Source: Planctomyces sp. SH-PL62
GTDB taxonomy: Bacteria > Planctomycetota > Planctomycetia > Isosphaerales > Isosphaeraceae
Assembly (NCBI RefSeq): GCF_001610895.1
Contig: NZ_CP011273.1
Coordinates: 4,774,001 to 4,838,000, forward strand
Direction of reading: 5' to 3'
DNA length: 64,000 bases
The notes beneath the pieces are model-generated. The model ran no database searches. It worked only from the letters and a program-made list of their open reading frames with translations, and was not told where the DNA came from. Shown here piece after piece: positions 8,197-24,912 of this stretch (the stretch's first letter is position 1; each line of letters begins with the position of its first letter). The translations under genes and the position numbers were made by a program.

Positions 8197-8772
8197 GAGT
8201 CGTCCGGATCTCGAAGCGGGTTCAAGGGAGGATCATCACCGAGACCGACTTCGAGATTTTCAAGGGCCGCCCGCCCCCGGTCAAGTGATCGACGTCAACC
8301 GTCCCGGCGCGGGCCTCGCGGCTCGATCGCGATCAAGGGAAGCGGCCAGGACGGGGGGGACATTTCCTGAATGGGATGAGGTCGCATGGCGCTCTCCTTC
8401 CTCGTTCGGGGCGTCGAAGCTTGGCCGGTCCACTGGTTTCGAGTGTTTTCATTCGCAAGTCTTGAGCCCTTGCAATGAAAAATCGCAAGACCTTACCAGC
8501 AAACTTCTTGTGTACGATTTCCCCTCCGGTTTCTCCCCAGCTTCCGCCCCATGTCCAGGCGTCGTGGCGAGAAAATCGGCAGGCTTCCGCCGGGGCGGGA
8601 GTTCGCCGTGAACGGCGGGACGAGCCGCACCGGGCTGCTCTGGTGGGAATCCGCGGTCTTTGGTAATTAGACCTCAAGGGAGGGCCCGACGCGCGCCGAG
8701 AGGGCGACGGGTCCCGGATCGGAGGGCCGCTGGCGCCCGGGACGAGTCGCAAGGATGGGGAGGGATTCCAGA
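8197..8772. other. Gene-free interval
   Basis: No supported gene lies in these 576 bases. Open frames on both strands here lack motifs and good ribosome sites. The stretch from about 8440 to 8530 is noticeably less GC-rich and holds a small inverted repeat CTTGC/GCAAG at about 8469-8489, which may belong to the promoter region of the downstream plus-strand gene. No convincing -35/-10 pair was found. Confidence 0.5.
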
Positions 8773-9666
8773 ATGGCACGAGGACTGACCATCGGGGCGA
8801 GCGGACTGCTGACGGCCTGGACCGTCGGAGGGGCGCTCGCGTTCGGCCAGGCCCCCCAGCCGGCGGCCGCGTCTCCGCAGGCCCAGGAGCCCGCCCAGGC
8901 CGCGCCCGTCGCCCCGGGGACGGACGTCGACACCCTGCTGAAGCGTTGGGAGAGCCAGAGCACGAAGCTCAAGACCCTCGACGTCACCATCTTCCGGACC
9001 GACGTCATCCCGGCCTGGGATGAAATCGAGTACTACGAAGGTCGGGCCATCTTCAAGAGCCCGAACCTGGCTTTCATCGACTTCAAGAAGATCAAGCAGG
9101 GCGAGGACAAGCGGCCGATCAAGAAGGCCGACGGCGAGGCGTGGGAGAGCACCCACGAGGAGCGCATCGTCTGCACCGGCACCGAGGTCTGGCAGTACAA
9201 GACCGATACCAGCCAGATCTTCATCTTCCCGCTGGAGAAGGATCAGGCCGAGAAGGCCATCGAGGAGGGCCCCCTCCCGTTCCTCTTCAACATGAAGGCC
9301 GAGGAGGCCAAGAAGCGCTACACCATCGGCCTGATGGCCACGCCCGACGACAAGAGTTACGGCGTCAGCATCAAGCCCAAGCTCGACGTGGACCGGGAGA
9401 GCTTCAGCCAGGCCCTCGTCCAGCTCGACCGCCGATTCATGCTCCCCATCCGAATCGTCCTCATCTCGCCCGACGGCAAGAGCCGCAAGGACTTCCGGCT
9501 CGATCCCGTGAAGCCGAACGCCGCCGTGAAGGATGAGAACTTCGAGGGGAAGGAATTCCCCAAGTGGAAGATCGTCCGCAACCCGACCGGCGAGGATCGC
9601 CCCCGGACCGCGCCCGCCGCCAGCGCGTCGCGTCCCGCCCCCGCCCAGTCGGCGCCCTTGCGCTGA
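8773..9666 (+). CDS. Secreted TIGR03009-like planctomycete protein (LolA-like fold suspected)
   Basis: A 297-residue exported protein. The ATG at 8773 is chosen over an in-frame GTG-type start at 8755 because GGGAGGG lies 8 bases before it. A signal peptide (hydrophobic to about residue 24, ending ALAFGQA) is followed by an Ala/Pro/Gln linker. The mature part resembles the planctomycete-specific TIGR03009 family: TLLKRWESQS, an FKSPNLAFIDF strand, CTGTEVWQYK and RFMLPIRIVLISPDGK. The pattern of strands and the P-x-x-x-x-I/V-D-G/C-x-x-x-W-x-Y segment recall LolA-type lipoprotein-sorting proteins; that is inference. It ends in an Ala/Pro-rich tail and is followed by a terminator. Confidence 0.85.
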   Translation: MARGLTIGASGLLTAWTVGGALAFGQAPQPAAASPQAQEPAQAAPVAPGTDVDTLLKRWESQSTKLKTLDVTIFRTDVIPAWDEIEYYEGRAIFKSPNLAFIDFKKIKQGEDKRPIKKADGEAWESTHEERIVCTGTEVWQYKTDTSQIFIFPLEKDQAEKAIEEGPLPFLFNMKAEEAKKRYTIGLMATPDDKSYGVSIKPKLDVDRESFSQALVQLDRRFMLPIRIVLISPDGKSRKDFRLDPVKPNAAVKDENFEGKEFPKWKIVRNPTGEDRPRTAPAASASRPAPAQSAPLR

Positions 9667-12444: not shown

Positions 12445-12837
12445 TCAGTTGTCGTAGAACTTGCGAAGCGCCTTGTGGACCACATGGATGACCACGTGGC
12501 GGCTGACCGGCTTCTCCAGCACGCAGAAGGCGTGTTCGGACAGGGCGCGGCGCATCAGGCTCTCGTCGCAGGCGCCGGAGATCAGGATCGCCGGCAGCGC
12601 GGCTCGCATCTGGCGGAAGACCGCCAGGGTCTCCAACCCCGACAACCGGGGCAGGTGCATGTCCAGCAGCGCGATGTGGACGTGATGATCACGGACGATA
12701 TCGATCGCCTCCTCGCCGCTCTCGGCGAGGAACGTGCGATAGCCGTGCGGGATGAGGATGTCGCGGAGGGTTTCGCGAACGCCCGCATCATCGTCCGTGA
12801 TGAGGATCGAGTAATCGTGTACTGCTGATGACGTCAT
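12445..12837 (-). CDS. Single-domain response regulator (CheY-like)
   Basis: A receiver domain only, 130 residues, with no output domain. The acidic pocket is ITDDD (Asp15-17), the phosphoacceptor is Asp59 in LLDMHLP, the switch Ser is in ILISGA, and the conserved Lys is in LEKPV. No histidine kinase or sigma factor is adjacent, so its partner is unknown. It is convergent with the NfeD gene upstream in the window. Such stand-alone receivers act by protein contact or as phosphate shuttles. Confidence 0.93.
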   Translation of the reverse strand: MTSSAVHDYSILITDDDAGVRETLRDILIPHGYRTFLAESGEEAIDIVRDHHVHIALLDMHLPRLSGLETLAVFRQMRAALPAILISGACDESLMRRALSEHAFCVLEKPVSRHVVIHVVHKALRKFYDN

Positions 12838-13043
12838 AGTCTCGACCCACGTTTGATCCGCTCCGAGGATTCAACCAGGGTGATCGCACGCAAAGGATGG
12901 GCCAATAGACTCCTCGGCCCGCCATCCATCAGACACGATCGAAGCAACCGCTTGCAAGGTCGGGTTTTAAAAAAACCCCTAAGTCGCACGAGCGAGTCGA
13001 TCGCGGGACCTCGCCCGCGACCGACAGCCCGCCGAATTGGCAG

Positions 13044-14465
13044 TCAACGCGTCGCCGTGGGCGCAGGTTGGTCGGACGCGGCGGAGGCGGCCTTGGCGAG
13101 CCGCGAGAAGAGGCCCTTGGACTCCCCCCACCGTTTGTCGGGATCGAAAGCGTCGGCGGCGGCGAGTTCGGTCGGGTCCGCCTTGAGTCCGTCGTATCGG
13201 TACGACTCCAGCAGCGCCCCGTCCGCCTGGTGGGCGGTGACGACGACCGGCATCAGGCTGTCGGCGTCGAGATAGACCCGCCAGACTTCCCTGGTGGGCG
13301 TGATCCGCTGGATCAGGTGACATTCTCGATCCACGTCCTTGGGCTTCTGCACGCCTTTATACGTCAGCCTGCCTTCGGCCCCGGTCGGCCGGCCCTGAGA
13401 ATCGACCTGGCTGGCGAGGTTGTTGAAGATCGTGTCGAAGCCCGCCTCGGTGATGGCGTGTCGACTGTTCCGCAGGGCGAGCGGGCTGTCGACGGGGATG
13501 CTCATGCGCGGGATCGGGATCGCCGAGTTGGCGATGTTGACGTGCATCACCCGATCGTTGATCGCGGCCGAGTAGATGACTTCGCGGCCCTTGTTCGCCC
13601 CGTCGGGCCATTCGAGCCGGACGGCCTTGGGCTTGCGACGGATGCTCAGCAGGGCCTTCTCCTCGGGGAGGACCTGATTGCCGACGCGCTCCACGCGGGT
13701 GATCGAGACCTGATAGGTCGACATGGCCTCCAGACGCGCGCGAGCCTCGTCGAGGATCGACTTCAGGGACGGCCCGGCCGCCCCGACCGGAGCCTCCCCG
13801 CCCGGCTTGGCCTGGGCGAGCGCAGGGGGAGGCGACTGGGCCGGGGCTGGCTCGGCGATGGGCTCGGTCGCGAGGTCGTCGGCGACGGCCTCCGGCGGAG
13901 CGGGCGCCAGGTCGGCGGCGGCGAGTTCAGGCGGCGCCGGCGCAAGCTCGGCCGGCGGTTCGACCGGACGAGGCTCGGCCGCGACTGCGGCGGGGGCGGG
14001 GTCGGGAGCGGCGGAGGCCATCAGCGGTCCAGCCGCGCCGTCGGGGTCTCTCAGCACGGGAAGGCTCTCGGGACGTCCCAGCGTGACGCGGACGCTTTCA
14101 TCGGCCGTCCCACGAGACCGTGGGCGTGTCGCGGCGAGCGCCGGGGTCGTCCGACCGTCCGAGGCCGGTTCCCCTTCGTAGCGGCCCTCTGCGCCGGCCT
14201 GGGGCTTCCGGTCGGGACCGGCGGCCAGGGCCTCGGCGTCCTTGACGGCCTTCGATCCAGCCATGCCTTCAGCGTAAAGGTCGTATCCGGGTGCTGAGGG
14301 GGCGCGGGACCATAGCATGCTCGACATCGCCCCCGCGGAGGCCTGCAAGGCCTGGCTGGTCGCGCAGCCGAGCTGCCCGCAGATCGTGGCGGTCGCGGCG
14401 GCCACGATGAGCATCGTTCGTCGTACCGAGATCGTCTGCCGCGCTTCGGCGTTCGCCCAAGTCAT
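13044..14465 (-). CDS. Exported DUF1571-family protein
   Basis: A 473-residue exported protein. A signal-like stretch TMLIVAAATATICGQLGCA sits at about 17-35; the Cys could be a lipid site although the -3 residue (Gln) is not canonical. A long low-complexity region rich in Ala, Pro and Glu (about 100-225, with repeated PAPPE units) links to the C-terminal DUF1571-like domain, which has RARLEAMSTYQVSITRVERV, SIRRKPKAVRLEWPDGANKG and IYSAAINDRVMHVN. The fold again resembles LolA-type lipid-binding proteins, by inference only. GAGGGGG lies 9 bases before the ATG. Followed at 12962-12980 by an AT-rich hairpin that may help end the transcript. Confidence 0.82.
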   Translation of the reverse strand: MTWANAEARQTISVRRTMLIVAAATATICGQLGCATSQALQASAGAMSSMLWSRAPSAPGYDLYAEGMAGSKAVKDAEALAAGPDRKPQAGAEGRYEGEPASDGRTTPALAATRPRSRGTADESVRVTLGRPESLPVLRDPDGAAGPLMASAAPDPAPAAVAAEPRPVEPPAELAPAPPELAAADLAPAPPEAVADDLATEPIAEPAPAQSPPPALAQAKPGGEAPVGAAGPSLKSILDEARARLEAMSTYQVSITRVERVGNQVLPEEKALLSIRRKPKAVRLEWPDGANKGREVIYSAAINDRVMHVNIANSAIPIPRMSIPVDSPLALRNSRHAITEAGFDTIFNNLASQVDSQGRPTGAEGRLTYKGVQKPKDVDRECHLIQRITPTREVWRVYLDADSLMPVVVTAHQADGALLESYRYDGLKADPTELAAADAFDPDKRWGESKGLFSRLAKAASAASDQPAPTATR

Positions 14466-14643
14466 GAGAATGGTTCCCCCTCGCTGGGGAGTCCGCCAGA
14501 GTCGGAATCGTCTGGACGGCGGCCCTGGAGCCCTGGCCTCGATTTGAAAGCAGGCGCAGCCTTATCATAAACGCGGCGTCCGGGCAAGGCGAAGCTTGCC
14601 GGCGGGGGCGTCGACCGAGCGGCCCGCCCCCCTCCCCGCGAGG

Positions 14644-16338
14644 TCAGGAGCCGATGGTCGCGGCCATCGGGAACCCGTGGATCGCCTCGACGTCCGGGAT
14701 CAGGTGCGGCTGCTTATACTGTTCGACGGTCCCGCCGCTGCGGGCGAGCCGACGCTTCTGGAAATCGCCCCAGGCTCCGTCCTGGATGCGGATCGTGCGG
14801 ACCGGGCCGAGGCGGAGGCTGTCCCGCTTGGCGGCATACTCCACGTTCAACGTCCGAAGCTGCTCCTCGACCGCCGCGTCGAGCCGCTCAGCGGCCCCGT
14901 CGTCGGGGAGGTCGGAGGTTTCGACGAGCAGCCCGTAGGACGGCGGGTCTCCCCAGATCGGCAGCAGCAGGTACGAACGCAGACGGATGCCGACGGCCCG
15001 TTGCGCCGTCTCGACGGCCGTGATGACCTGGTGCTCGGAGATCTTCTCCCCCGTCAGGCTGGAGAAGTGGGCCCCCTTGTTCAGGAACTCGACGATCGGG
15101 GCCTCGCCGTGGAATCCGACGCAACGCACCAGATCGAAGATGTTGTAGCGGTACAAGCCGCCGGCCGTGGACAGGAGGACGAAATAATTCTTCCCCTCCA
15201 CAAGGTCCGCCGCCTCGATCGTCTGGGGGTCGGCCTTGTCGGCGTCATCCTCGGGGATGAACTCGAAGTAGTGGTGCCGGATGTCGAGCACGCCGGCGGG
15301 GGTGCCGTCCTCGATGGGAATCGTCATCCGCCCCTCGGAGGCGATCAAGCCGACGTCGCGCACCGGCTTCTCGCCGAAGAATTCAGGATAGCCGCGCAGG
15401 TACGCCCGCATCGTCCCCCCCATCCAGTTGGAGAGGAACTCCAGATTCGGCCAGTAGTCGCGGGGGAGGAGGCGGCCGGTCTCGCCGACGATCGCCTCCA
15501 GGCGCCGCGCGGCCGCCTTGCGCCGGAACCTCGTCCGGAACTTCAGCTCCTTGCGGACGTCGTCGGGGATGGCCCACTTGGTCGCGAGGGTGCCGTCGTA
15601 CAGGTCGCGGATCAAGGTCTCGCGCTCGCGATCGCCCAGCCGGACCATGTTGAGGATCGTGCTGGGGTTCGCGGCGATGATCGTCCCCAGGTTCTTGGCG
15701 ATCGAGAACCGCAGCGCGACGTAATACTTGGACTCCACGTCCTTGATCCGCGAGCCGCTGGGGGGCATGCAGTAGGTGGTCCGGATCATCCGCGACTGCA
15801 TCGAGGCCGTGAGCCCCGTGATCGCCCCGCAGGGAATGCCGGCGGGCGAATAGCTCTCGCGCCAGTCGCTGGCGATCTGGAGGATGGGACGCAGGCCGTT
15901 TTCGATGATGTCGGGATGGGAATCGAACGCCTGAATGCCCCAGATCAACCAGCCCGCGCGGTAATTCTCCAGGGACTCGCGGGTGACCGGGATGGTCTTC
16001 GGGCGGTTGGTGGTCCCCGAGGTCATGGCGAACATCAGGACGTCCGTCCCCGGCCCGAAGAGCGCGGAGACGTCGCCGTTGCGGACCCGGTCGATGTAGG
16101 GCTCGTGGCGGCTGTAGTCGCCGATCGGGACCTGCCTGCGAAAATCCTCCGGGGTGCGGATCTGGCCGAAGTGGTGGTCGCGGCCGAACGCGCTGTCGGC
16201 GTTGCGGGCGATCCGAGAGAGGAGCAGCTCGCGCTGGACCTTGCGGGCCTGCTTCGTCTGGTCGTGGAACTCGACCGCCAATCGGCGGGCGCGGTTCGCG
16301 ATCCGGCGGCCGACGAGCCGCTTCAGGAACGTGAGCAT
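14644..16338 (-). CDS. GH3-family acyl-adenylating ligase
   Basis: A 564-residue member of the GH3 family, best known from plant enzymes that adenylate a carboxylic acid and join it to an amino acid. The ATP-binding segment FAMTSGTTNRPKTIPVT is at residues 103-119, the second adenylation motif region is FLSNWMGGTMRAYL, and the conserved YRYNIFDLVRCVGF and LTGEKISEHQV motifs complete it. No signal peptide or membrane helix. It is the last gene of a same-strand block with an alpha/beta hydrolase (30 bases upstream), two ketosynthases, an ACP and two dehydratases. I infer that its substrate is an acyl acid made by that block; the acceptor is unknown. Confidence 0.88.
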   Translation of the reverse strand: MLTFLKRLVGRRIANRARRLAVEFHDQTKQARKVQRELLLSRIARNADSAFGRDHHFGQIRTPEDFRRQVPIGDYSRHEPYIDRVRNGDVSALFGPGTDVLMFAMTSGTTNRPKTIPVTRESLENYRAGWLIWGIQAFDSHPDIIENGLRPILQIASDWRESYSPAGIPCGAITGLTASMQSRMIRTTYCMPPSGSRIKDVESKYYVALRFSIAKNLGTIIAANPSTILNMVRLGDRERETLIRDLYDGTLATKWAIPDDVRKELKFRTRFRRKAAARRLEAIVGETGRLLPRDYWPNLEFLSNWMGGTMRAYLRGYPEFFGEKPVRDVGLIASEGRMTIPIEDGTPAGVLDIRHHYFEFIPEDDADKADPQTIEAADLVEGKNYFVLLSTAGGLYRYNIFDLVRCVGFHGEAPIVEFLNKGAHFSSLTGEKISEHQVITAVETAQRAVGIRLRSYLLLPIWGDPPSYGLLVETSDLPDDGAAERLDAAVEEQLRTLNVEYAAKRDSLRLGPVRTIRIQDGAWGDFQKRRLARSGGTVEQYKQPHLIPDVEAIHGFPMAATIGS

Positions 16339-16368
16339 GATCGGTCGACGCCCCGCAGGTGGAAGGAT

Positions 16369-17484
16369 TCAGCCGGTCACGGAGGAAGCGATGTTCGTGA
16401 TCAAGCCCGAGGCTTCGGCGCGGCCGTGGACGGCGTCGTACTTGCCGAACTCCGAGGCCGCGATCTCCTCCTCGATCTCGGCCAGGGGCCGCCGAGGAGC
16501 GTGCAGGTCGACGAACTCGCCGAGCCGGCGGGCGTACTCTTCGGGCTCGGTCTCGCGGCAGCGATTATGCTTCGCGTCCGCCACGAACCACTGGCTCCTG
16601 GGCTCGCCCGCCCAGTCGAAAAGCTCATGTGCGATGTCGGTTCCGATATAAACGTCGCGCTCGCCATGGATCTGGAGCCAGGGACGCGGGGAGAGCCGGG
16701 CGACGGCCCGCTCGACGCTGGGATAGGTGCAGTTGCGGGCCCGTTCGGTCCCTCTCCGGGCCACGTCTCCCAGGGTCGCGAAGATGAACCGGGGGACCAG
16801 GGCCAGGAACCACCGGCTGCGGACGTAGATCTCGGCCCAGCGGACGATGTACGCGGTCATCGTGCCCCGAGTGGGGAAGGCGCCGTCGGTGACCACCCCC
16901 CAGACGTCGGGCTCGGCGGCGGCGACGAGCAAGGCGGTGCCGCCCCCCCGGCTCACGCCGAACAGCCCGTAGCCGGAAAGGTCGCGATCCGGCCGCGAGC
17001 GGAGATACGCCAGGGCGGCGCGGAGGTCCTCCACCTCGCGATCGGAGGCGTACTGGAGCGGCTCGTACGACGGGTCGACCGCGCTCGCCCCGTGGCTGCG
17101 GAAGTCGAAGCTGAAGACGTCGAAGCCGCGATCCCTCAGGTGGTCGAGATACGGCGCGTAGCTCCAACGGTCGCTGAGGAACTCGTGACAGTAGACCAGG
17201 ACGCCGACCCGCGAATCGGTGCGAGCCTTGAAGTAGCTCCCCTTGAGCGTCAGGCCGTCGGCCGTCGGGAAGGCGGCGGGTTCCCCGAGGTCTTCGGGGA
17301 CGATCTTCAGGGGCTGGAACACCGGCCGTTCCTGGAAGATCCGGCGGATCACCGGGCAGTACATCCAGGTGGTGTACGCCAGGAAGCCGCCGAAGACCAC
17401 GACCGGAGTGGCCGCCAGGACCGCCAGGACGATGAGAAGCGTTGAGAGGCCGACCACGACTGGGCTCCCGTCGGATTCGTCCAT
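16369..17484 (-). CDS. Membrane-anchored alpha/beta hydrolase
   Basis: A hydrolase of about 371 residues. The N-terminal membrane helix (LSTLLIVLAVLAATPVVVFGG) anchors an alpha/beta-hydrolase domain with the nucleophile elbow GVSRGGG, an oxyanion strand VYCHEFLSDRW, HGERDVYIG supplying the acid, and AKHNRC supplying the His. It could be an esterase, thioesterase or acyltransferase; the sequence does not say which. The start may be the ATG at 17484 or an in-frame GTG at 17493; neither has a strong ribosome site. It sits between the ketosynthase KS-alpha (79 bases upstream) and the GH3 gene (30 bases downstream), which suggests a role in releasing or transferring the acyl product. Confidence 0.85.
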   Translation of the reverse strand: MDESDGSPVVVGLSTLLIVLAVLAATPVVVFGGFLAYTTWMYCPVIRRIFQERPVFQPLKIVPEDLGEPAAFPTADGLTLKGSYFKARTDSRVGVLVYCHEFLSDRWSYAPYLDHLRDRGFDVFSFDFRSHGASAVDPSYEPLQYASDREVEDLRAALAYLRSRPDRDLSGYGLFGVSRGGGTALLVAAAEPDVWGVVTDGAFPTRGTMTAYIVRWAEIYVRSRWFLALVPRFIFATLGDVARRGTERARNCTYPSVERAVARLSPRPWLQIHGERDVYIGTDIAHELFDWAGEPRSQWFVADAKHNRCRETEPEEYARRLGEFVDLHAPRRPLAEIEEEIAASEFGKYDAVHGRAEASGLITNIASSVTG

Positions 17485-17563
17485 GCCGTCCACGACCGAC
17501 CCGGGCCCGGCTCGCCACGGAGCGAGACGGACGTCGGGGGCTGGAACGGCTGCGAGACTCCGG

Positions 17564-18850
17564 TCAATCGGTATAGCGTTTGAGGATCAAGGTGATGTTC
17601 TGGCCGCCGAAGCCGAAGCTGTTCGAGAGCGCGACGTCGACCTTCTTCTTCCGCGACTCGTGGGGGATGTAGTCGAGGTCGCAGTCGGCGTCGGGATTGT
17701 CCAGGTTGATCGTGGGGGGGAGGAGGCCGTCGCGGATGGTCAGCAGGCAGACGATGGCCTCGACGCTGCCGGCGGCGGCGATCAGGTGCCCCATCATGCT
17801 CTTGGTGCTGGAGATCGGCACCTTGTATGCGGCGTCCCCGAACGTCTTCTTGATCGCCAGGGTCTCGACCGAGTCGTTGACCGAGGTGCTGGTGCCGTGG
17901 GCGTTGACGTAGTCGACCTGATCGGCCTCCAGGCCCGCCACTTCGAGGGCCTGGCGGAGGCAGGCGATCGCGCCCCGGCCGTCTTCGTGGCTGTCGGTGA
18001 TGCGGAAGGCGTCGGCCGTGGAGCCGTAGCCGACGATCTCGCCGTAGATCTTGGCGCCGCGGGCCTTGGCGTGCTCCAGTTCCTCGAGGACGAGCATGCC
18101 CGCGCCTTCGCCGATGATGAAGCCGTCGCGGTCGCGGTCGAACGGCCGGCTGGCCTTCTCCGGCTCGTCGTTGCGGGTCGAGAGGGCCGTCAGGAGGATG
18201 AAGCCCGTCACGCCGAACGGGTGGATCATGCTGTGGGTCCCGCCGGACAGCATCACGTCGGCGCAATCGTGGCGGATCATCTCGAAGGCCTCGCCGATCG
18301 CCTGCGAGCTGGCCGCGCAGGCGGTCAGGCAGTTCGAATTCGGCCCTCGGGCCCCGAACTTCGCCGCGAGGTGGGCGGCCGGGGTGCCGGGCTCTTGCTC
18401 GGCCTCATGGATCATGTGCAGGTCGTGGACGCCGTACTTCGTGAAATCCTGGGTGGCGACCTTGCCCGATTTCCCGGACTTGTACACCAGCTTCACGAAC
18501 CGCTCGAAGTCCTGCTGGCCTTCGCCCGCGCCAAGGTAGATCCCGAACCGCGTCCGATCGAACTCGTCGCCAGCCTGGGAGAGCCCCGAGTCGTCCATCG
18601 CCATCCGACCGGCCGCCAGCGCGAACCGCGTGTTGCGGGAGTGCTCGCTCCAGCGGTCTCCGTCCTCGATGTAGGAAGACAGGTCGAAGTCCTTCACCTC
18701 GGCCGCGATCCGGGTCGGGAAGGTGTGGGCGTCGAAGAGCGTGATCGGCCCGACGCCGCTCTTCCCCGAAAGGAGCGCGGACCAGGTCGTCTCCACGTCC
18801 CGGCCGACCGGGGTGACCATGCCCATTCCTGTGACAACGACGCGCCGCAT
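17564..18850 (-). CDS. Beta-ketoacyl-ACP synthase, FabF-like, catalytically intact (KS-alpha)
   Basis: A 428-residue condensing enzyme that joins malonyl-ACP to an acyl chain. The catalytic triad is complete: Cys178 in LTACAASS, His318 in NAHGTSTSVND, and Lys350/His355 in STKSMMGHLIAAAG. The C-terminal GFGGQN motif is present. Length matches FabF (about 410). GGGAAG precedes the ATG. It is 73 bases downstream of a second, altered ketosynthase, an arrangement like the KS-alpha/KS-beta pairs of type II polyketide and aryl-polyene systems. Whether it is the cell's main FabF cannot be decided from this window. Confidence 0.94.
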   Translation of the reverse strand: MRRVVVTGMGMVTPVGRDVETTWSALLSGKSGVGPITLFDAHTFPTRIAAEVKDFDLSSYIEDGDRWSEHSRNTRFALAAGRMAMDDSGLSQAGDEFDRTRFGIYLGAGEGQQDFERFVKLVYKSGKSGKVATQDFTKYGVHDLHMIHEAEQEPGTPAAHLAAKFGARGPNSNCLTACAASSQAIGEAFEMIRHDCADVMLSGGTHSMIHPFGVTGFILLTALSTRNDEPEKASRPFDRDRDGFIIGEGAGMLVLEELEHAKARGAKIYGEIVGYGSTADAFRITDSHEDGRGAIACLRQALEVAGLEADQVDYVNAHGTSTSVNDSVETLAIKKTFGDAAYKVPISSTKSMMGHLIAAAGSVEAIVCLLTIRDGLLPPTINLDNPDADCDLDYIPHESRKKKVDVALSNSFGFGGQNITLILKRYTD

Positions 18851-18923
18851 GAAGCAACTTCCCGGGACTGCGCCCGACCTGGATGGAACGAGGAGCGATC
18901 GGAACCGATGCGCGAGGCGAGGC

Positions 18924-20249
18924 TCAGCCGGGAGACCCCGAGGGGGCGCCCCCCCGCACGACGACGGCGGAAGCCTGGCCGTTGACGGTCACGTTGGTGT
19001 TGACGAAGACCGAATTGTCGGTGGGCCGCGGGGCCCCGGTCACGACGTCGATCTTGCAGCCCGGGTCGAGGTCGTCGCAGTTCAGGGTCGGCGGGATCAG
19101 CCCCCGGTTCACCCCGACCAGGCTGGCGATCAGCTCGACCGCCCCGGCCCCGGAGGCGATGTTGCCGAAGAAACCCTTGAGGGCCGATACCGGCACCTTG
19201 CCCGGGCCGAACACCCGCTCGAACGCCCGGGCCTCGGCGAGGTCGCTGACCTTCGAGCCCGAGCCGTGGGCGTTGACGTGGCCGACGGCCCCGGGCTCGA
19301 GACGAGCTTCCCGGAGCGCCGCCTTGATGGCGATCTCGGTGCCGCCGCCGTCCGGGTCCTGGCCGCCGGCGAGGACCGCGTCGCAGCCCGAGCCCGAGCC
19401 GAGGATCTCGCCGTGGATCTTCGCCCCGCGCCGCAGCGCGTGGCCGAGTTCCTCCAGGATCAGGATCCCCGCCCCTTCGCCGGCGAGCGTGCCGTCGCGG
19501 CGGGCGTCGAACGGACGCAGCCCGGCGGCGGGCTCGCCGCTCCAGCGGGACATGGTGTCGTAGAGGGCCATCCGGGTGAGGCTGAGGGGGTGGATCTTCG
19601 AATCCCCGCCGCCGGTGATCATCACGTCGGCCTTGCCGCGGGCGATGATCCGCGCGGCCTCGGCGATCGCCAGGTTCGACGACGCATCGGCCTCGGTGAT
19701 CGTGTTGCTCGGCCCCTGGCAGTCCATCAGGATGGAGATGTGGCAGGCCAGCATGTTGGGCAGGTACTTGAGCAGCCAGATCGGCTCGATCACGCCGATC
19801 CCTTCGCGGCCCCAGACCGGGAACTCGAACTGGCCGGTCGCCGAGGAGGCCAGCGAGATCGCCGGAGCCAGCTCGTCCAGCTCGGTCGAGATCAGGCCGG
19901 CTCCCAGGTCGATCCCGATCCGGGTCGGCTCGACGCCGCCGTCGACCAGGCCGGCGTCGTCCATCGCCCGTTGGGCGGCGGCCACGGCGAGCTGGATGTC
20001 CCGGGCCATGTACTTGCGGCTCTTGCGCAGGGAGGTGCGATACTTCGGCAGGGCGTAGCCCTTGAGGAAGTCGAAATCGCGGATTTCGGCGACGATGTCG
20101 TTGGGCAGCCCCTCGACGGGGAACGCTTCGACGCGTCGCAGCCCCCCCTCGCCGGTCGCGAGCCGCTCCCAGATGCGATCCGGAGCGTCACCCAGAGGTG
20201 TGACGAACCCTAACCCGGTTATGACCACGCGGCGTTCGGAACCAAGCAT
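18924..20249 (-). CDS. Ketosynthase homologue with lost active site (KS-beta or chain-length-factor-like)
   Basis: A 441-residue ketosynthase-fold protein. Aligned with its neighbour, the active-site Cys is replaced by Asp188 (TEADASS against TACAASS) and the second catalytic His by Asn363 (LKGFFGNIASGAG against TKSMMGHLIAAAG), while His328 in NAHGSGSK and Lys358 remain. It should not condense malonyl units by the normal route. In type II polyketide systems such inactive partners dimerise with the active KS and set chain length; decarboxylation of malonyl-ACP is another known role for altered ketosynthases. An unusual insert (about 140-170, WGREGIGVIEPIWLLKYLPN) is otherwise like FabF. The frame is intact, so this is not a decayed gene. 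Confidence 0.9.
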   Translation of the reverse strand: MLGSERRVVITGLGFVTPLGDAPDRIWERLATGEGGLRRVEAFPVEGLPNDIVAEIRDFDFLKGYALPKYRTSLRKSRKYMARDIQLAVAAAQRAMDDAGLVDGGVEPTRIGIDLGAGLISTELDELAPAISLASSATGQFEFPVWGREGIGVIEPIWLLKYLPNMLACHISILMDCQGPSNTITEADASSNLAIAEAARIIARGKADVMITGGGDSKIHPLSLTRMALYDTMSRWSGEPAAGLRPFDARRDGTLAGEGAGILILEELGHALRRGAKIHGEILGSGSGCDAVLAGGQDPDGGGTEIAIKAALREARLEPGAVGHVNAHGSGSKVSDLAEARAFERVFGPGKVPVSALKGFFGNIASGAGAVELIASLVGVNRGLIPPTLNCDDLDPGCKIDVVTGAPRPTDNSVFVNTNVTVNGQASAVVVRGGAPSGSPG

Positions 20250-20426
20250 GTATGACCCGTCGAACTCCCCGGTGATGGCCTGCGGCTCGACCCCTCGGCC
20301 GTCCCGCCTTTCGCGGTGAGCCGTCGGGAGGCTCCAGGAACCGCCCGGACTGGATTCGTCCCGCGAGAGGACCCTGAACTTGGAATGCGTACAGTCTACC
20401 GAATGCCCGCGGACTTGGCGACCGCC

Positions 20427-20972
20427 TCAAGGGGCGGGCGGCGTCGCCGAGGGCTCGCCGTTGACCTCGTGCTCGACGGCCTTGCCGTCGAGTTCCTTGG
20501 CCCGTTGCTGCGCCTTGGCGAGGTCGAGCACGCCCAAGAGCTGTTGCGTGAACACGAAATTCTTGGGGCCGAAGATCTGGTTGGCCCGGGTGTTGTCCAG
20601 GTGGGCGAAGACGATCTCGGCGTCCGCGAGCAGGTCCGTCCCCAGGAACGCCTTGGCGTCGACCACCGCGCCCTCCGAACGGAGATCGGTCAGCGTCACC
20701 TCATAGATGAGCTGATCTCCGGCGCAGGCCACGCCGAAGAACTCGGCCCGGGGGATCTTGGCGAGCACCACCTTCTCGGTGAAGCCGCCGGCCTCCCCCA
20801 CGAGGATCCCGCCGGTCTGGGCCAGGCCCTCGATGATGAGCGACGCCGGCATGACCGGATAGCCCGGGAAGTGGTCGTGCAGGTGCTCTTCGGCGAGGGT
20901 CAGGTTCTTGATCGCTCGCGCGAACTGACCGCTCCGGAACTCCACGAACTTGTCGATCCAGATCCATCGCAT
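20427..20972 (-). CDS. FabZ-like hotdog-fold 3-hydroxyacyl-ACP dehydratase
   Basis: A 181-residue hotdog protein. The FabZ signature is present as HDHFPGYPVMPASL with the catalytic His, followed by EGLAQTGG with the catalytic Glu. About 30 residues longer than FabZ, with a charged tail (LDLAKAQQRAKELDGK). It lies between the ACP gene (163 bases upstream) and KS-beta (177 bases downstream). It shares RAIKNLTLAEE with the second hotdog gene (HAIKNLSLAEE), so the two look like diverged duplicates. Each could act on a different chain length or they may form a heteromer. Confidence 0.9.
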   Translation of the reverse strand: MRWIWIDKFVEFRSGQFARAIKNLTLAEEHLHDHFPGYPVMPASLIIEGLAQTGGILVGEAGGFTEKVVLAKIPRAEFFGVACAGDQLIYEVTLTDLRSEGAVVDAKAFLGTDLLADAEIVFAHLDNTRANQIFGPKNFVFTQQLLGVLDLAKAQQRAKELDGKAVEHEVNGEPSATPPAP

Positions 20973-21135
20973 GGTCGAAGACGCCGCCAGGCCAGGGGAA
21001 AGATTGGGAATTCGGTCCGGCCGCCCCGCGATCGCCCGAGGAGGTCGACGACGCCCGCCCGCGCGGGTGGGGGGGGACCACCCGCCGCGGCGTCGCGCGG
21101 ACCGTCCGTCCTCCGAGACGGCCCCGCGGCCCGGC

Positions 21136-21519
21136 TCAGGAGCCGAGCTTGCTCTGGACGTACTGCACCAGCATGTCGACCGTGTACAGGTCGCCCAGCT
21201 TCTCGACGTCGGGGTCGGCCTCCAGCTTCGAAAGGTCGGCGAACGGCAGGCGGGCCTTCAGCTCCGCGACGCCCTTCGACGTCAGCCGGCCGTCGGCGAT
21301 CCATTCGGGATCGGCCAGGTTCTCCGGGAACAGCTCGCCCCGGGGGATCTTGATGCCGAAGTTCCGCTCGAGGCGGAAGACGATGTCCAGGAAGTCGATC
21401 GACTCGGCACCCAGATCGCCCTGCAGCGTGGACTCGCGGGAGACTTCCTCCTCGTCCACCCCCAGCGCGTCGACCAGGGTGGACTGGACCTTCTCGAAGA
21501 TTTCTTCGTATGCGGGCAT
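21136..21519 (-). CDS. Acyl carrier protein, elongated
   Basis: A 127-residue carrier protein. The phosphopantetheine site is Ser40 in DLGAESIDFLD. The ATG at 21519 follows GAGGATGAC, a good ribosome site; the open frame further upstream is ignored. Ordinary ACPs are 75-85 residues. Here an extra segment of about 40 residues lies between the ACP helix II and the last helix (GELFPENLADPEW then KARLPFADLSKLEADP). The first 50 residues are acidic as expected. It lies inside the ketosynthase block and is probably the dedicated carrier of that pathway. Confidence 0.9.
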   Translation of the reverse strand: MPAYEEIFEKVQSTLVDALGVDEEEVSRESTLQGDLGAESIDFLDIVFRLERNFGIKIPRGELFPENLADPEWIADGRLTSKGVAELKARLPFADLSKLEADPDVEKLGDLYTVDMLVQYVQSKLGS

Positions 21520-21727
21520 GTCATCCTCAGGAATAAGGGGGAACACGGGCTCGCACTCGATCCACGGCGAATCGGGGACGCGGTCGGGCCTTCGATCAAG
21601 TCGGCTCACTTAATCGTCGGCGAGATCGAGCGGCGAACTTCAGGGGGGGTGGGTCGCAAGGTGGAAGCCCGATTCGCTTGGGGGGGCCTTCCCGGATCCT
21701 TCGGCCGGAATCCGAGAGTCGCGTCCG

Positions 21728-21756
21728 ATTGTCCAGAAAATCGGGATTCCTTGCAA
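21728..21756 (-). promoter_or_regulatory. Candidate promoter before the acyl carrier protein gene
   Basis: On the minus strand, TTGCAA (21751-21756) and GACAAT (21728-21733) are 17 bases apart, about 210 bases before the ACP start, inside the 382-base gap after the first dehydratase. If real, the ACP-dehydratase-KS genes can be expressed without the first dehydratase. The rest of the gap holds no supported gene. Confidence 0.45.
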
Positions 21757-21901
21757 CCTCATCACGCTCAACCAAGGATACGATCAAACTGGGCAAGGCT
21801 GGGGAAATATTCCGGGCTTCCCCGCGAAGACTTTATCGACCTTGCCGGATGGGCGGGTCGCGCCTGAGGAAACGGCCGCCGCCCTCCCCTTCCGGGCCGG
21901 T

Positions 21902-22429
21902 TCAGACCAGCTTCGCCGCCGCCGGCTCGGGCGTCCGGGCGATGGCGCGAGCGCCCACCGAGCCCTTCCGCAGAGTGGCGTAGAGGTCCCGAAGCCCGGC
22001 GACGATCTGGGCGTCGGTGTTGTGCAGGAGCGGATTCTTCTCCCGCAGGTTGTACCGGGTGAGGATGATCCGGCCCTTCACCATCTCCTGCCCGTCGATG
22101 ACCCCGACCCCCTTGAACGTGGCGTTCTGGCCGACGTCGGAGACCAGGTCCACCTTGAGTTCGAGCTGGCGGCCCGGCTCGACGAAGCTGCCGTACTTGA
22201 TGGTCTTGGCCTGCTTCAGCACGATGATGCTGTGGGCGAAGTCTTCCATGTCCCGGATCAGCCACGCTCCGGCCTGCGTCAGGGCCTCCAGCATCAGCAC
22301 CCCGGGCATGACCGGAAATCCCGGGAAGTGGTCGGCGAGGTATTCCTCGGCGAGCGAAAGATTCTTGATGGCGTGCAGCGAACGCCCGGGCTGGACGTCG
22401 AGGATGCGATCGATCAGGACGAAACGCAT
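21902..22429 (-). CDS. FabZ-like hotdog-fold 3-hydroxyacyl-ACP dehydratase (first gene of block)
   Basis: A 175-residue hotdog protein starting at the ATG at 22429, which has GGGAG five bases before it. The catalytic His and Glu are in DHFPGFPVMPGVLMLEALTQAG, closer to canonical FabZ than its sister at 20427. The C-terminal tail of about 35 residues (after NPLLHNTDAQIV) is extra. It heads the same-strand block and has its own promoter candidate at 22612-22639. Confidence 0.9.
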   Translation of the reverse strand: MRFVLIDRILDVQPGRSLHAIKNLSLAEEYLADHFPGFPVMPGVLMLEALTQAGAWLIRDMEDFAHSIIVLKQAKTIKYGSFVEPGRQLELKVDLVSDVGQNATFKGVGVIDGQEMVKGRIILTRYNLREKNPLLHNTDAQIVAGLRDLYATLRKGSVGARAIARTPEPAAAKLV

Positions 22430-22611
22430 GGATGCTCCCGAATTCAAGAAGGCGGAGACTCAAGGGGGCTCGACTCTCGAGCCGTCCGGGACCGGGGCGT
22501 CGGGGAAGTCCGCGAGCGACGATCCCTCATCTTATCGCCGGGAGGGAGGCCGATTCAAGGACCGGTCCGTAGGCCCTTGGCGCGACCGCTGGACGTAACT
22601 CGTTCGAGAGA

Positions 22612-22639
22612 AACATACAACTTTCGAAGGCTCGGTCAA
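22612..22639 (-). promoter_or_regulatory. Candidate promoter for the ketosynthase/dehydratase block
   Basis: On the minus strand, TTGACC (22634-22639) and TATGTT (22612-22617) are 16 bases apart. A start near 22605 would give a leader of about 175 bases before the dehydratase ATG at 22429. The interval also separates this block from the divergent gene at 22834, for which a TATACT at 22736-22741 is a weak -10 candidate without a clear -35. Confidence 0.5.
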
Positions 22640-22833
22640 ATGCGCGGGGTCGTCCGCCGCGACGGACGCGCCGTGGGAGCGGCCTGACCGGATTGGGGCG
22701 GGGCCTTTCAACTAGGAAGTCGGCTCCGGCGACCTTATACTTGAATCGCGTCGTCGTCGCGCCGGGCGAACGACGCCCTCTCCACAGTTGCGGAGGCGGA
22801 TCGCGGCCCCGACCCGGCGGAGGGTTTGGGAAC

Positions 22834-24912
22834 ATGCTGTCGAGCCTGGTGGGCCTCCCCCACGTCCTGTCGGCCGCGCTCGCGACGGTCGCATTCGGCG
22901 CTCCGATCGATTGGTCGCGCGACGGCCGGTGGATCGCCCACCTCGCCGTCGACTCCGCCGAGGCCCCCGCCCTCCCCCACGGCTGGATCCTTGCGCCGGC
23001 GATCCCGTCGCCGACCCCCGCCGCCGCGCGGCGGGTCTATCGGCTCTGGGCGACCCGAGCCGGCAGCTCGGACTCGGTCCTGCTCGCGGAATCTTCCGAT
23101 CCGCTTTCCTCGCCGACCTGGGGGCCCGACGGCCGTTCCCTGGTGTTCGGTCGTTTCGTTGCGACCCAGCCCGACGGGCCGTCCAGCGTCCGCGGCCGTT
23201 ACGAGGTCGTCGTCCAGTCGGGGCTGGACCAGAAACGAGTGATCGTCGTCCAGCCCGACCTGGAACTCGACGCCGAGTCTCGCGCCGCGATCGTTCTCCT
23301 GAGGCCGACCTTGAGCGCCGACGGTCGACGGCTGGCGATTCCGAGACCAGGCCCGGCCGGCGGCGTCTGGCTGCTGCGGCTCGACGAGGACCGGGTGTCT
23401 CGGACGATCGACGCCGCCCGCTTTCCGGCCTGGTCGCCCGACGGCCTCCGCCTCGTCTACCTCAAACTGGCGCCAGGGCCGGACGGCCCAGGAGTTTCCG
23501 TCCACCTGCTGAATCCGGCGGGTGGGGGCGACCGTCTCCTGAGCAACGACGCCGCGCTGACCGCCTCGCCCCCCGTCTGGGGCCTCGACAGCCAGACGAT
23601 CCTGATGATCGCCAGCCCGACGCGCGGGCCGTTCCGGCACACCCAGGTCGACCTCGTGAGGATCAATGTGGAGGCCGGCTTCAGCGCCCGGATCTCCACC
23701 CTCGAGGCCGCCGCGCCGGTTAACGTGCCGCAGCGGTTCCGCGGCCCCGCCACGGCGGTCGGCGAACGGCTCCCTACGATCCACGTCGAACTCGCGCTCG
23801 ACGGCGAGCAGGAGCAGGGAGTGTGCCTGGTCGACGCCGACGGCCAGGACCAGGTCATGAAGTGGTACACCGTGCAGACGCAGAACACGTTCAAGCGGTT
23901 CCACCCCCTCGACGCCGGCCTCCGCATCCGCGCCCCCGCCCTGTCCCCGGACGGCCGGACCCTGGCGTTCCGCGTGCTGGACGGCGGGCCCTCGGGACTC
24001 GCGGCCTTCTGCGACCTGAACACCGAGGAAATCGTCCTGATCGCCCCGGACGCCGCGACCCGGGACCGCTGGCTCGATCGACTCGCCGCCTGCGCCGTGG
24101 ACCTCATCCAGACCTGGCTCCCCATGACGGCCGGGGACGGCCCCGGAAACCGGGCGACCATCCTTCCCATCCTCAGCGAGCTGGGCGGGATCCATCCCCG
24201 GCAGTACCGGCTGCAACGGCTCGCGAAGTTCGCCCGGAGCCTGCTGGAAGAACTTCCCCCAGCCGATCGCGCGGACCCCTCGCCGGAATCGTTCGAGGAG
24301 TTCCGGCTCTTCTTCGCCTATCTGAACCGGGACTACGCGACCGCCGAGCGCCATCTCGACGCGGTCGAGGCGGCGTCAGACGATCCCGGCTCGCGGCTCC
24401 GTTGGCTCTGCCTCCGCACGCAGATCCTGCTGGGCCAGGGCGAGGTCGATCGGGCGCGGGGGATCATCGACTACATCGATCGCGAGACGAACGTCCGTGC
24501 GGTGAAGCTCGAACACTCCCCGGCCGGCCCCGTCCTCACCGAAGTCGAGAACCCCGAAAACGCCTGGGCGAAGCACCTGGCGCAGAAGGCGACCGATGGC
24601 GCGCTCCGGCGGGCCCAGGCCGGGATGGACGGCCTCGACTTCGAGGAAGCTCGCGAGCCGGATCCGGGACTGGGACCGGGCGAGCTGGACCGGATGCCGA
24701 ATCTCCCGTTCGCCCCGAACGCCGGCGTCGATCAGGGCCTGAACCCGATCGCGCCCGACGAGTTCGGCGGGATCGCACCGCCCCGGCCTCGCCCTCGGAT
24801 CTTCGTCGAGCCCGGCGATGGCGTCGAAGGCCCGGCGGGGAGGCCCTTCCGGGCCCCTGCTCCGCCGCCGCCCGGAGACGTCCCGATCCTGCATCTCGAA
24901 CAGGAAAACTGA
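22834..24912 (+). CDS. Exported TolB-like beta-propeller protein of unknown function
   Basis: A 692-residue exported protein. GGAGGG lies 9 bases before the ATG at 22834; in-frame codons upstream to 22693 are disregarded. After a signal peptide (LSSLVGLPHVLSAALATVAFGA), repeated segments of the WD40-like/PD40 type appear: PIDWSRDGRWIAHL, SSPTWGPDGRSLVFG, RPTLSADGRRLAIP, FPAWSPDGLRLVYL, APALSPDGRTLAFR. The second half (about 400-600) is helical with TPR-like character (FFAYLNRDYATAERHLDAVE). The C-terminus is Pro/Gly-rich. I infer a periplasmic propeller scaffold; no enzyme motif is seen. It is convergent with the M28 peptidase, ending 3 bases from it. Confidence 0.82.
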   Translation: MLSSLVGLPHVLSAALATVAFGAPIDWSRDGRWIAHLAVDSAEAPALPHGWILAPAIPSPTPAAARRVYRLWATRAGSSDSVLLAESSDPLSSPTWGPDGRSLVFGRFVATQPDGPSSVRGRYEVVVQSGLDQKRVIVVQPDLELDAESRAAIVLLRPTLSADGRRLAIPRPGPAGGVWLLRLDEDRVSRTIDAARFPAWSPDGLRLVYLKLAPGPDGPGVSVHLLNPAGGGDRLLSNDAALTASPPVWGLDSQTILMIASPTRGPFRHTQVDLVRINVEAGFSARISTLEAAAPVNVPQRFRGPATAVGERLPTIHVELALDGEQEQGVCLVDADGQDQVMKWYTVQTQNTFKRFHPLDAGLRIRAPALSPDGRTLAFRVLDGGPSGLAAFCDLNTEEIVLIAPDAATRDRWLDRLAACAVDLIQTWLPMTAGDGPGNRATILPILSELGGIHPRQYRLQRLAKFARSLLEELPPADRADPSPESFEEFRLFFAYLNRDYATAERHLDAVEAASDDPGSRLRWLCLRTQILLGQGEVDRARGIIDYIDRETNVRAVKLEHSPAGPVLTEVENPENAWAKHLAQKATDGALRRAQAGMDGLDFEEAREPDPGLGPGELDRMPNLPFAPNAGVDQGLNPIAPDEFGGIAPPRPRPRIFVEPGDGVEGPAGRPFRAPAPPPPGDVPILHLEQEN

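Follow-up and report, generated by a model that had tools for sequence, protein, structure and literature searches.

A planctomycetal GH3 acyl acid amido synthetase linked to a ketosynthase/chain-length-factor block and a DUF1571 protein

Introduction

GH3 enzymes are known from plant hormone control. Among the literature matches listed, the only bacterial GH3 protein with a tested function is OlsH (2025, PMC12493201), the lyso-ornithine lipid synthetase of the planctomycete Singulisphaera acidiphila (Sinac_1599). Given ornithine, ATP, and a free fatty acid (myristic, palmitic, or stearic acid), OlsH makes N-acyl ornithine, and it needs neither an acyl carrier protein (ACP) nor a coenzyme A (CoA) donor. 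The second acyl chain is added by OlsI, an alpha/beta hydrolase that partners OlsH (PMC12493201). Here, we analyzed another planctomycetal GH3 protein, encoded at positions 14644–16338 of a 64,000-nucleotide stretch of Planctomyces sp. SH-PL62 (contig NZ_CP011273.1, positions 4,774,001–4,838,000; hereafter the window). Its gene belongs to a same-strand series of eight that also encodes an ACP, a ketosynthase (KS), a KS-like protein of the chain-length factor (CLF) type, two dehydratases (DH1 and DH2), an alpha/beta hydrolase, and a DUF1571 protein.

Parts of this gene set occur in other described systems. The ligase compared here from coronafacic acid synthesis is CfaL. Coronafacic acid and cispentacin are products of type II polyketide synthase (PKS)-like systems with FabF-like KS, ACP, and FabZ-like enzymes, in which a ligase joins the acid to an amino acid (PMC10698177). 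The proteins of our block match AmcF, AmcE, and AmcB at 232.8, 44.7, and 27.9 bits, all below the respective cut-offs of 325, 140, and 80 bits; in contrast to those systems, the ligase here is a GH3 protein, and two dehydratases and a CLF are present in addition. Highly reducing type II PKSs, such as those for aryl polyenes (PMC8358021), also combine a KS with a Cys-less partner, two dehydratases, and an ACP, but the eight genes of the window include neither a ketoreductase nor an aryl starter gene, and their ligase is again a GH3 protein. Finally, the stieleriacines are N-acyl tyrosines whose N-acyl amino acid synthases are of the NasY type; they share with the product proposed below that they are planctomycete N-acyl amino acids, but the term GH3 is absent from the main text of the paper that describes them (PMC12479983).

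Results

The Window Protein Is a GH3 Acyl Acid Amido Synthetase

Genomes, loci, and families are denoted below by G, L, and f numbers, with f1 for the window's family and G000 for its own genome (6.78 Mb). The 35 family loci are stretches of up to ~10 kb on either side of GH3, shorter at contig ends, and counts of active-site residues cover the window and the loci from L049 on.

The reading frame is complete, running from an ATG start over 564 amino acids and filling exactly the interval given above. A Pfam scan of the protein found the GH3 N-terminal domain (241.4 bits, residues 23–326), GH3_M (74.3 bits, residues 351–421), and GH3_C (67.0 bits, residues 437–549), each against a cut-off of 23.6 bits. 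The three nucleotide-binding motifs, with the reference forms SSGTSQGRPK, YGSSE, and GLYRYRLGD (PMC12493201), are recognizable but divergent: TSGTTNRPK at 106 is one residue shorter, LIASEG stands at 331, and GLYRYNIFD at 394 has FD instead of GD. Ser334, Glu335, Asp402, and Lys432 are invariant in 69 of 69 aligned relatives, and Ser107 is kept in 66, with Thr in the other 3. The closest named homologue is from Paludisphaera soli (90% identity), followed by those of other Planctomycetales and Singulisphaera, which suggests a member of the Isosphaeraceae close to Paludisphaera.

The solved structures matched by the sequence are all plant GH3s (10 distinct sequences; best JAR1, E 3e-30). An AlphaFold model built with 17 sequences has a pLDDT of 79.5, with the motif I loop (108–111) poorly modelled, and its Foldseek ranks 1–30 are likewise all plant GH3s (best E 3.5e-32; highest TM 0.76 when normalized by target length and 0.72 by query length); the next matches are PaaK-type AMP ligases, CoA ligases among them. 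Although JAR1/GH3.11, GH3.5, and GH3.12 are thus the best solved-structure matches by both sequence and fold, identity to the plant proteins is only ~20%, motif I is shorter, and the window protein is encoded by a bacterial gene within an acyl-chain block. Domains, motifs, and fold are those of GH3 (PF03321), and they bear out the first-pass annotation of this DNA, which had named a GH3 ligase here. The protein belongs to the GH3 acyl acid amido synthetase class; amide formation itself is a prediction.

The Window GH3 Differs from OlsH

Against the OlsH model NF052613 (equivalog cut-off 620 bits), the window GH3 scores 99.2 bits, whereas a second GH3 protein encoded ~48 kb away in the same genome, which serves as a positive control, scores 977.1 bits. 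That second gene is part of an ornithine-lipid operon, with an OlsI protein at 440.0 bits (cut-off 385) and an OlsG-like protein at 341.5 bits, slightly below its cut-off of 350. The two GH3s of this genome are 23% identical by BLAST, and the window GH3 is 24% identical to OlsH of S. acidiphila. Furthermore, BLAST showed no similarity between the window hydrolase and OlsI, and the OlsI model is absent from the matches of the window hydrolase. OlsH identity of the window GH3 is therefore ruled out, both by score and by the fact that olsG and olsI adjoin the other GH3 gene. What the two proteins share is a planctomycete origin, the same three nucleotide motifs, an adjacent alpha/beta hydrolase gene, and an expected use of free acid and ATP (PMC12493201); their partners differ, being OlsG and OlsI for the one and the KS/CLF block with DUF1571 for the other.

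S. acidiphila (G031) carries both types, as G000 does. Its OlsH, with 526 amino acids (1581 bp), 58.76 kDa, a pI of 7.33, and motifs at 114, 289, and 353, agrees with the published S. acidiphila values, and locus L066 of the same genome holds the whole block with a 568-residue window-type GH3 and DUF1571. In the olsH deletion mutant, the strongly ornithine-labelled lipid TMOL was lost, and a compound near the origin was labelled in both the mutant and the wild type; another unknown lipid, not ornithine-labelled, was lost as well, which the authors take as an indirect effect (PMC12493201). As TMOL was lost despite the presence of the second GH3, the latter did not stand in for OlsH under the conditions used. 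This speaks against ornithine as the acceptor of the window-type enzyme, provided that the enzyme is expressed in S. acidiphila. Ornithine as the main acceptor is thus disfavoured. A counterpoint is a locus with arginine-biosynthesis-type genes in an f2 genome (G058, L052:8039-13106), where GH3 lies 56 nt behind carbamoyltransferase, class III aminotransferase, and amino acid kinase genes like those of arginine/ornithine synthesis.

GH3 Lies behind an Acyl-Chain Block

The eight genes run in the order DH1, ACP, DH2, CLF, KS, alpha/beta hydrolase, GH3, and DUF1571, with intergenic gaps of 382, 163, 177, 73, 70, 30, and 178 nt (Table 1). The first-pass annotation had placed GH3 closely after an alpha/beta hydrolase and ketosynthases. 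The hydrolase gene does end 30 nt ahead of GH3 on the same strand, and acyl-chain genes precede it, but only one of the two supposed ketosynthases qualifies. That protein is of the FabF type, with a Cys-His-His triad that is present in 46 of 46 sequences. The adjacent KS-like protein is 36% identical to it, and its group has no Cys at the active position (53 of 53 aligned sequences) and Asn in place of the second His in 42 of the 53, a replacement typical of CLFs. Without a catalytic Cys in the protein or its relatives, it is a CLF-type partner and not a second ketosynthase; the adjacent genes for a KS with Cys-His-His and a partner lacking the Cys encode a putative type II KS–CLF pair.

The other members of the block also keep most of their active-site residues. 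The attachment Ser of the ACP is conserved in 38 of 38 sequences. In DH1, the His is found in 39 of 39 and the Glu in 35 (Gln in the other 4), and in DH2 the His is found in 35 of 40 and the Glu in all 40. The hydrolase has a Ser181-Asp280-His309 triad, with all three residues kept in 41 of 41 sequences, and an N-terminus that is hydrophobic as judged by eye; it is a candidate acyl-ACP thioesterase.

Could the block be the genome's only fatty acid synthase? This was rejected. The whole genome has 12 matches to the KS C-terminal domain and 6 to FabA/FabZ, the block's own included, and two further KS proteins, at 598.4 and 498.3 bits, score above the threshold for FabF, so the block is additional to ordinary fatty acid synthesis. 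Another KS gene, at G000:C1:2192470 (L170, L175), encodes a protein 68% identical to the block KS; it stands without the other block genes and adjoins a sulfotransferase-like frame.

Table 1. Features of the GH3 locus and of the ornithine-lipid operon in the same genome.
Feature	Position	Strand	Basis
DUF1571 protein, proposed product carrier	13044..14465	-	Pfam PF07608, 85.6 bits
GH3 acyl acid amido synthetase, not OlsH	14644..16338	-	Pfam domains, motifs, conserved residues, predicted structure
Alpha/beta hydrolase, proposed acyl-ACP thioesterase	16369..17493	-	Pfam Hydrolase_4/Abhydrolase
FabF-type KS, Cys178-His318-His355	17564..18850	-	TIGR03150, 519.1 bits (cut-off 493.75)
Cys-less KS-like protein, CLF type	18924..20249	-	Alignment; adjoins KS
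FabZ-type dehydratase DH2	20427..20972	-	Pfam FabA, 55.1 bits
ACP, 127 aa	21136..21519	-	PP-binding, 40.2 bits; start at 21519 assumed
FabZ-type dehydratase DH1	21902..22447	-	Pfam FabA, 67.9 bits
olsI-olsG-olsH ornithine-lipid operon	L049:6600-9743 = G000:C1:4737.6-4740.7 kb		Profile scores

The last ~250 bases of the 382-nt gap between DH1 and ACP (21520–21901) look conserved in five Paludisphaera-type genomes and are perhaps a promoter or leader. No Rfam RNA family was found in 12500–23000, which includes this gap, and the promoter and terminator scans gave chance-level hits only.

Linkage of GH3 and the Block across Genomes

Of 59 relatives, 53 have GH3 domains, as do 113 of 392 genomes sampled from the phylum as a whole. 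Within the family, KS and CLF genes lie in the fetched stretch at 31 of 35 window-type GH3 loci, on the same strand in 30. The first-pass annotation had named, as the observation that would speak against its proposal, GH3 homologues lying always far from KS genes in related genomes; these loci show that to be false. Of 20-kb stretches drawn at random from the main contig, 2.5% contain one of the genome's other KS genes, so the proximity of GH3 and KS is more than chance. At one of the remaining family loci (G019), the contig starts at GH3. Outside the family, KS and CLF accompany GH3 at 3 of 6 loci in f3, at 1 of 6 in f4, where each genome has two copies of GH3, and at the single f6 locus.

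The order DH1-ACP-DH2-CLF-KS-hydrolase-GH3 is found at most family loci and also in G047, G053, and G056 (f3), G039 (f4), and G041 (f6). It is conserved, with no hydrolase detected, even in a distant planctomycete of another class (G111). Elsewhere, the hydrolase keeps company with one side or the other: with GH3 in G043, where KS and CLF are elsewhere, and with the block in G044 and G048, where GH3 is elsewhere. The supposed link of GH3 to acyl-chain genes is supported at most family loci, at some loci of f3 and f4, at the f6 locus, and, with other kinds of acyl line, at L104, L109, and L115 (below). It is not strict: the block was seen at just 1 of the 49 remaining GH3 loci.

Among 59 genomes, the window's own included, 44 have block and GH3, 2 the block only, 7 GH3 only, and 6 neither (Fisher p 0.0008, from counts not corrected for kinship and genome sets compiled by hand). 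The two block-only genomes are 68% and 77% complete. G043 was counted as having the block, with only KS and CLF seen around its CLF (L165), and G029 as one of the seven GH3-only genomes, its KS lying at a contig edge (L089). In G026 and G036, there is only a weaker OlsH-like GH3 match, and no window-type locus was taken. Contigs cut the neighbourhood at L083 (start) and at L074 and L080 (ends), and L103 is short (3.9 kb). The hydrolase of G038 is divided between two contig ends (L094, L164), so that GH3 may adjoin the block in that genome.

The OlsH-type control loci (L049, L106–L108) have the block in 0 of 4 cases, and in a tree of 101 GH3s the OlsH group lies far from the block-linked proteins. 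The latter fall inside one 70-row clade (SH-aLRT 99), which includes 30 unlinked genes; the label "block" requires 9 changes on the tree compared with a shuffled mean of 31.5, counting as "block" also L094 and L096 (only the hydrolase seen) and L104 (type I PKS). The link between GH3 and the block is old or was gained repeatedly, and it was sometimes lost. A phylum-wide CLF search found block-type CLFs above 530 bits in three of the 392 genomes (G000, G018, and G111), few family genomes having been drawn. In f2 and f7 genomes (L149–L156), there are CLF-type KS-like genes whose surrounding stretch lacks the other block genes.

A DUF1571 Protein with a Predicted LolA/RseB-like Fold Accompanies GH3

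DUF1571 adjoins GH3, always on its strand, at 30 of the 35 family loci, and it stays with GH3 in G010 and G027, two of the three loci whose block lies apart. The window's genome has only two DUF1571 genes. A model of the C-terminal 239 residues (pLDDT 85.9) matched RseB (best, E 7.2e-9), LolA (7.1e-7), LppX (4.2e-6), and LprG (5.7e-6) in Foldseek, with modest TM-scores of 0.32–0.68 over the matches listed, and it predicts a LolA/RseB-like fold of the LolA superfamily. Folds of this type bind lipids or lipoproteins. Together with the linkage to GH3, the predicted fold speaks for a product of lipid nature that leaves the inner membrane, and the DUF1571 protein may be the carrier that takes it outward. 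Another protein, barely above the Pfam LolA cut-off (23.7 vs. 23.6 bits), is encoded on the plus strand at 8755–9666, ~5 kb from GH3.

GH3s of the Same Clade and Beyond in Other Settings

In G054 (L104:8776-18534), GH3 lies 30 nt behind a gene for a 2681-residue type I PKS with KS, acyltransferase, dehydratase, enoylreductase-like, ketoreductase, ACP, and terminal thioesterase domains; an MMPL transporter gene is nearby, and an enolase-superfamily gene is on the other strand. In G368 and G264 (L109 and L115), of the same clade, GH3 follows a multidomain PKS/fatty acid synthase (FAS)-like gene and a short-chain dehydrogenase gene. The multidomain gene of L109 encodes acyltransferase, four ACP, ketoreductase, and dehydratase domains, and the part of its L115 counterpart that was seen encodes ketoreductase and dehydratase domains; AAT domains are also listed for these neighbours, and L109 has a phosphopantetheinyl transferase. 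In the tree, the GH3 of G330 is nearly identical to that of G368.

More distant GH3 genes adjoin an enolase-superfamily (MR_MLE) gene at L114, L116, L117, L142, and L143, with a hydrolase as well at L114. These neighbours, like the enolase-superfamily protein of L104, score below the cut-offs of the named families; they hint, as a lead only, at a chemistry like that of N-acyl amino acid racemases. The scan covered 20 chosen neighbour proteins plus two more, out of those listed for 36 loci. In G007 (L073:8803-13278), GH3 lies ~85 nt behind the gene for a 900-residue protein that reaches 714 of 850 bits for the prodigiosin aminotransferase PigE. Supply of the amine by such a PigE-like reductase-aminotransferase was considered, but the idea is not general, as only 4 of the 59 genomes have a relative.

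Discussion

What could a GH3 ligase be doing behind an acyl-chain block? The gene content and order, their conservation, the active-site residues, and the predicted folds described above are compatible with a single pathway formed by the eight genes, to which we give about an even chance. In this pathway, the ACP, the KS/CLF pair, and the two dehydratases would build a dedicated acyl chain, and ketoreduction would be borrowed from elsewhere in the cell, because the block itself has no ketoreductase. The alpha/beta hydrolase would then release the chain from its carrier protein in the form of the free acid. GH3 would adenylate this acid with ATP and transfer the acyl group to an amine on a small molecule, for which an amino acid, though not ornithine, is the likeliest candidate. 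The resulting N-acyl amide would be moved towards the cell surface by the LolA-like DUF1571 protein.

The thioesterase role of the hydrolase, the source of the acid, the amide product, the acceptor, and the export are steps that we infer. GH3 chemistry uses free acids, as OlsH does without an ACP or CoA donor, so a releasing enzyme is expected; by analogy with the plant GH3s and OlsH, the product is expected to be an amide (PMC12493201). The arrangement at L104, a terminal thioesterase followed by GH3, is to be expected if the acid that GH3 activates has first been set free, and it points to the same role for the window hydrolase.

Several observations weigh against the single-pathway proposal. 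No ketoreductase was found among the eight genes from DH1 to DUF1571, genes further out having been scanned in part, and the hydrolase could instead be an O-acyltransferase, as OlsI is. GH3 and the block are separated at three of the 35 family loci, those of G007, G010, and G027, as well as in two of the three f4 genomes, and in G025 they are on opposite strands. The co-occurrence counts are not independent of kinship, and the GH3 tree is a quick one with long branches on which those 9 label changes are still needed. Beyond f1, f3, f4, and f6, 48 of 49 GH3 loci (9 of f2/f5 and 40 of the wider phylum) are devoid of the block, the exception being L123 of G111. In 7 of the 59 genomes, five of which belong to f2, GH3 is present but no block was detected, and the GH3 genes of G010 and G027 keep DUF1571 but not the block.

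The last three of these observations would fit a GH3 that works on ordinary cellular fatty acids, such as the three that OlsH accepts (PMC12493201), and is only a neighbour or operon mate of the KS/CLF genes. We regard this as unlikely, though a serious competitor, in view of the linkage at 31 of 35 family loci, the same gene order in other families and in G111, and the same-clade GH3 behind a type I PKS at L104. That GH3 and the hydrolase act like OlsH and OlsI, forming first an N-acyl bond and then, by O-acylation, an acyloxyacyl amino lipid, appears improbable to us. A GH3 and an alpha/beta hydrolase are indeed also paired in the ornithine-lipid operon (PMC12493201), and in G043 the two remain together though KS and CLF are elsewhere; on the other hand, the window hydrolase neither resembles OlsI by BLAST nor matches its model, and the partner of GH3 at L104 is a thioesterase-ended PKS.

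A product other than an amide, whether ester or thioester (acyl-CoA, for example), is brought to mind by the PaaK-type AMP ligases, CoA ligases included, that follow the GH3s in the Foldseek ranking. Since plant GH3s fill all of the first 30 ranks, and since both they and OlsH form amides (PMC12493201), we consider it very unlikely; no result obtained here supports the ester that the first-pass annotation had offered beside the amide. Auxin-conjugating plant GH3s inactivate or regulate an acid. Were the window GH3 to act in this way, the amide would be a side product, but linkage to a lipid-carrier-like protein and a biosynthetic block suggests production, and the chance of such a disposal role seems slight.

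The enzyme class is known, but the subfamily with its own KS/CLF line and carrier-like partner appears to be new to the literature searched: among the matches listed, from a scope mostly outside subscription journals and preprints, nothing concerned a GH3 with such a line and partner. A wider idea, which we put forward tentatively and hold to be rather doubtful as a whole, is that one planctomycetal GH3 clade serves as the amide-forming finisher of several unrelated acyl lines, namely the type II KS/CLF line here, the thioesterase-ended type I PKS of G054, and the PKS/FAS-like multidomain lines of G368 and G264, and that in the Isosphaeraceae its product is a near-universal, DUF1571-carried, unknown surface lipid. 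If this is true, most of the Isosphaeraceae genomes examined encode, with a second GH3 type and its own acyl line, an undescribed amide lipid. The single-pathway proposal names the source of the acid, the releasing enzyme, the ligase, and the carrier as one set, and S. acidiphila, for which an olsH deletion already exists and which carries the whole set, would offer a genetically tractable host for this pathway.

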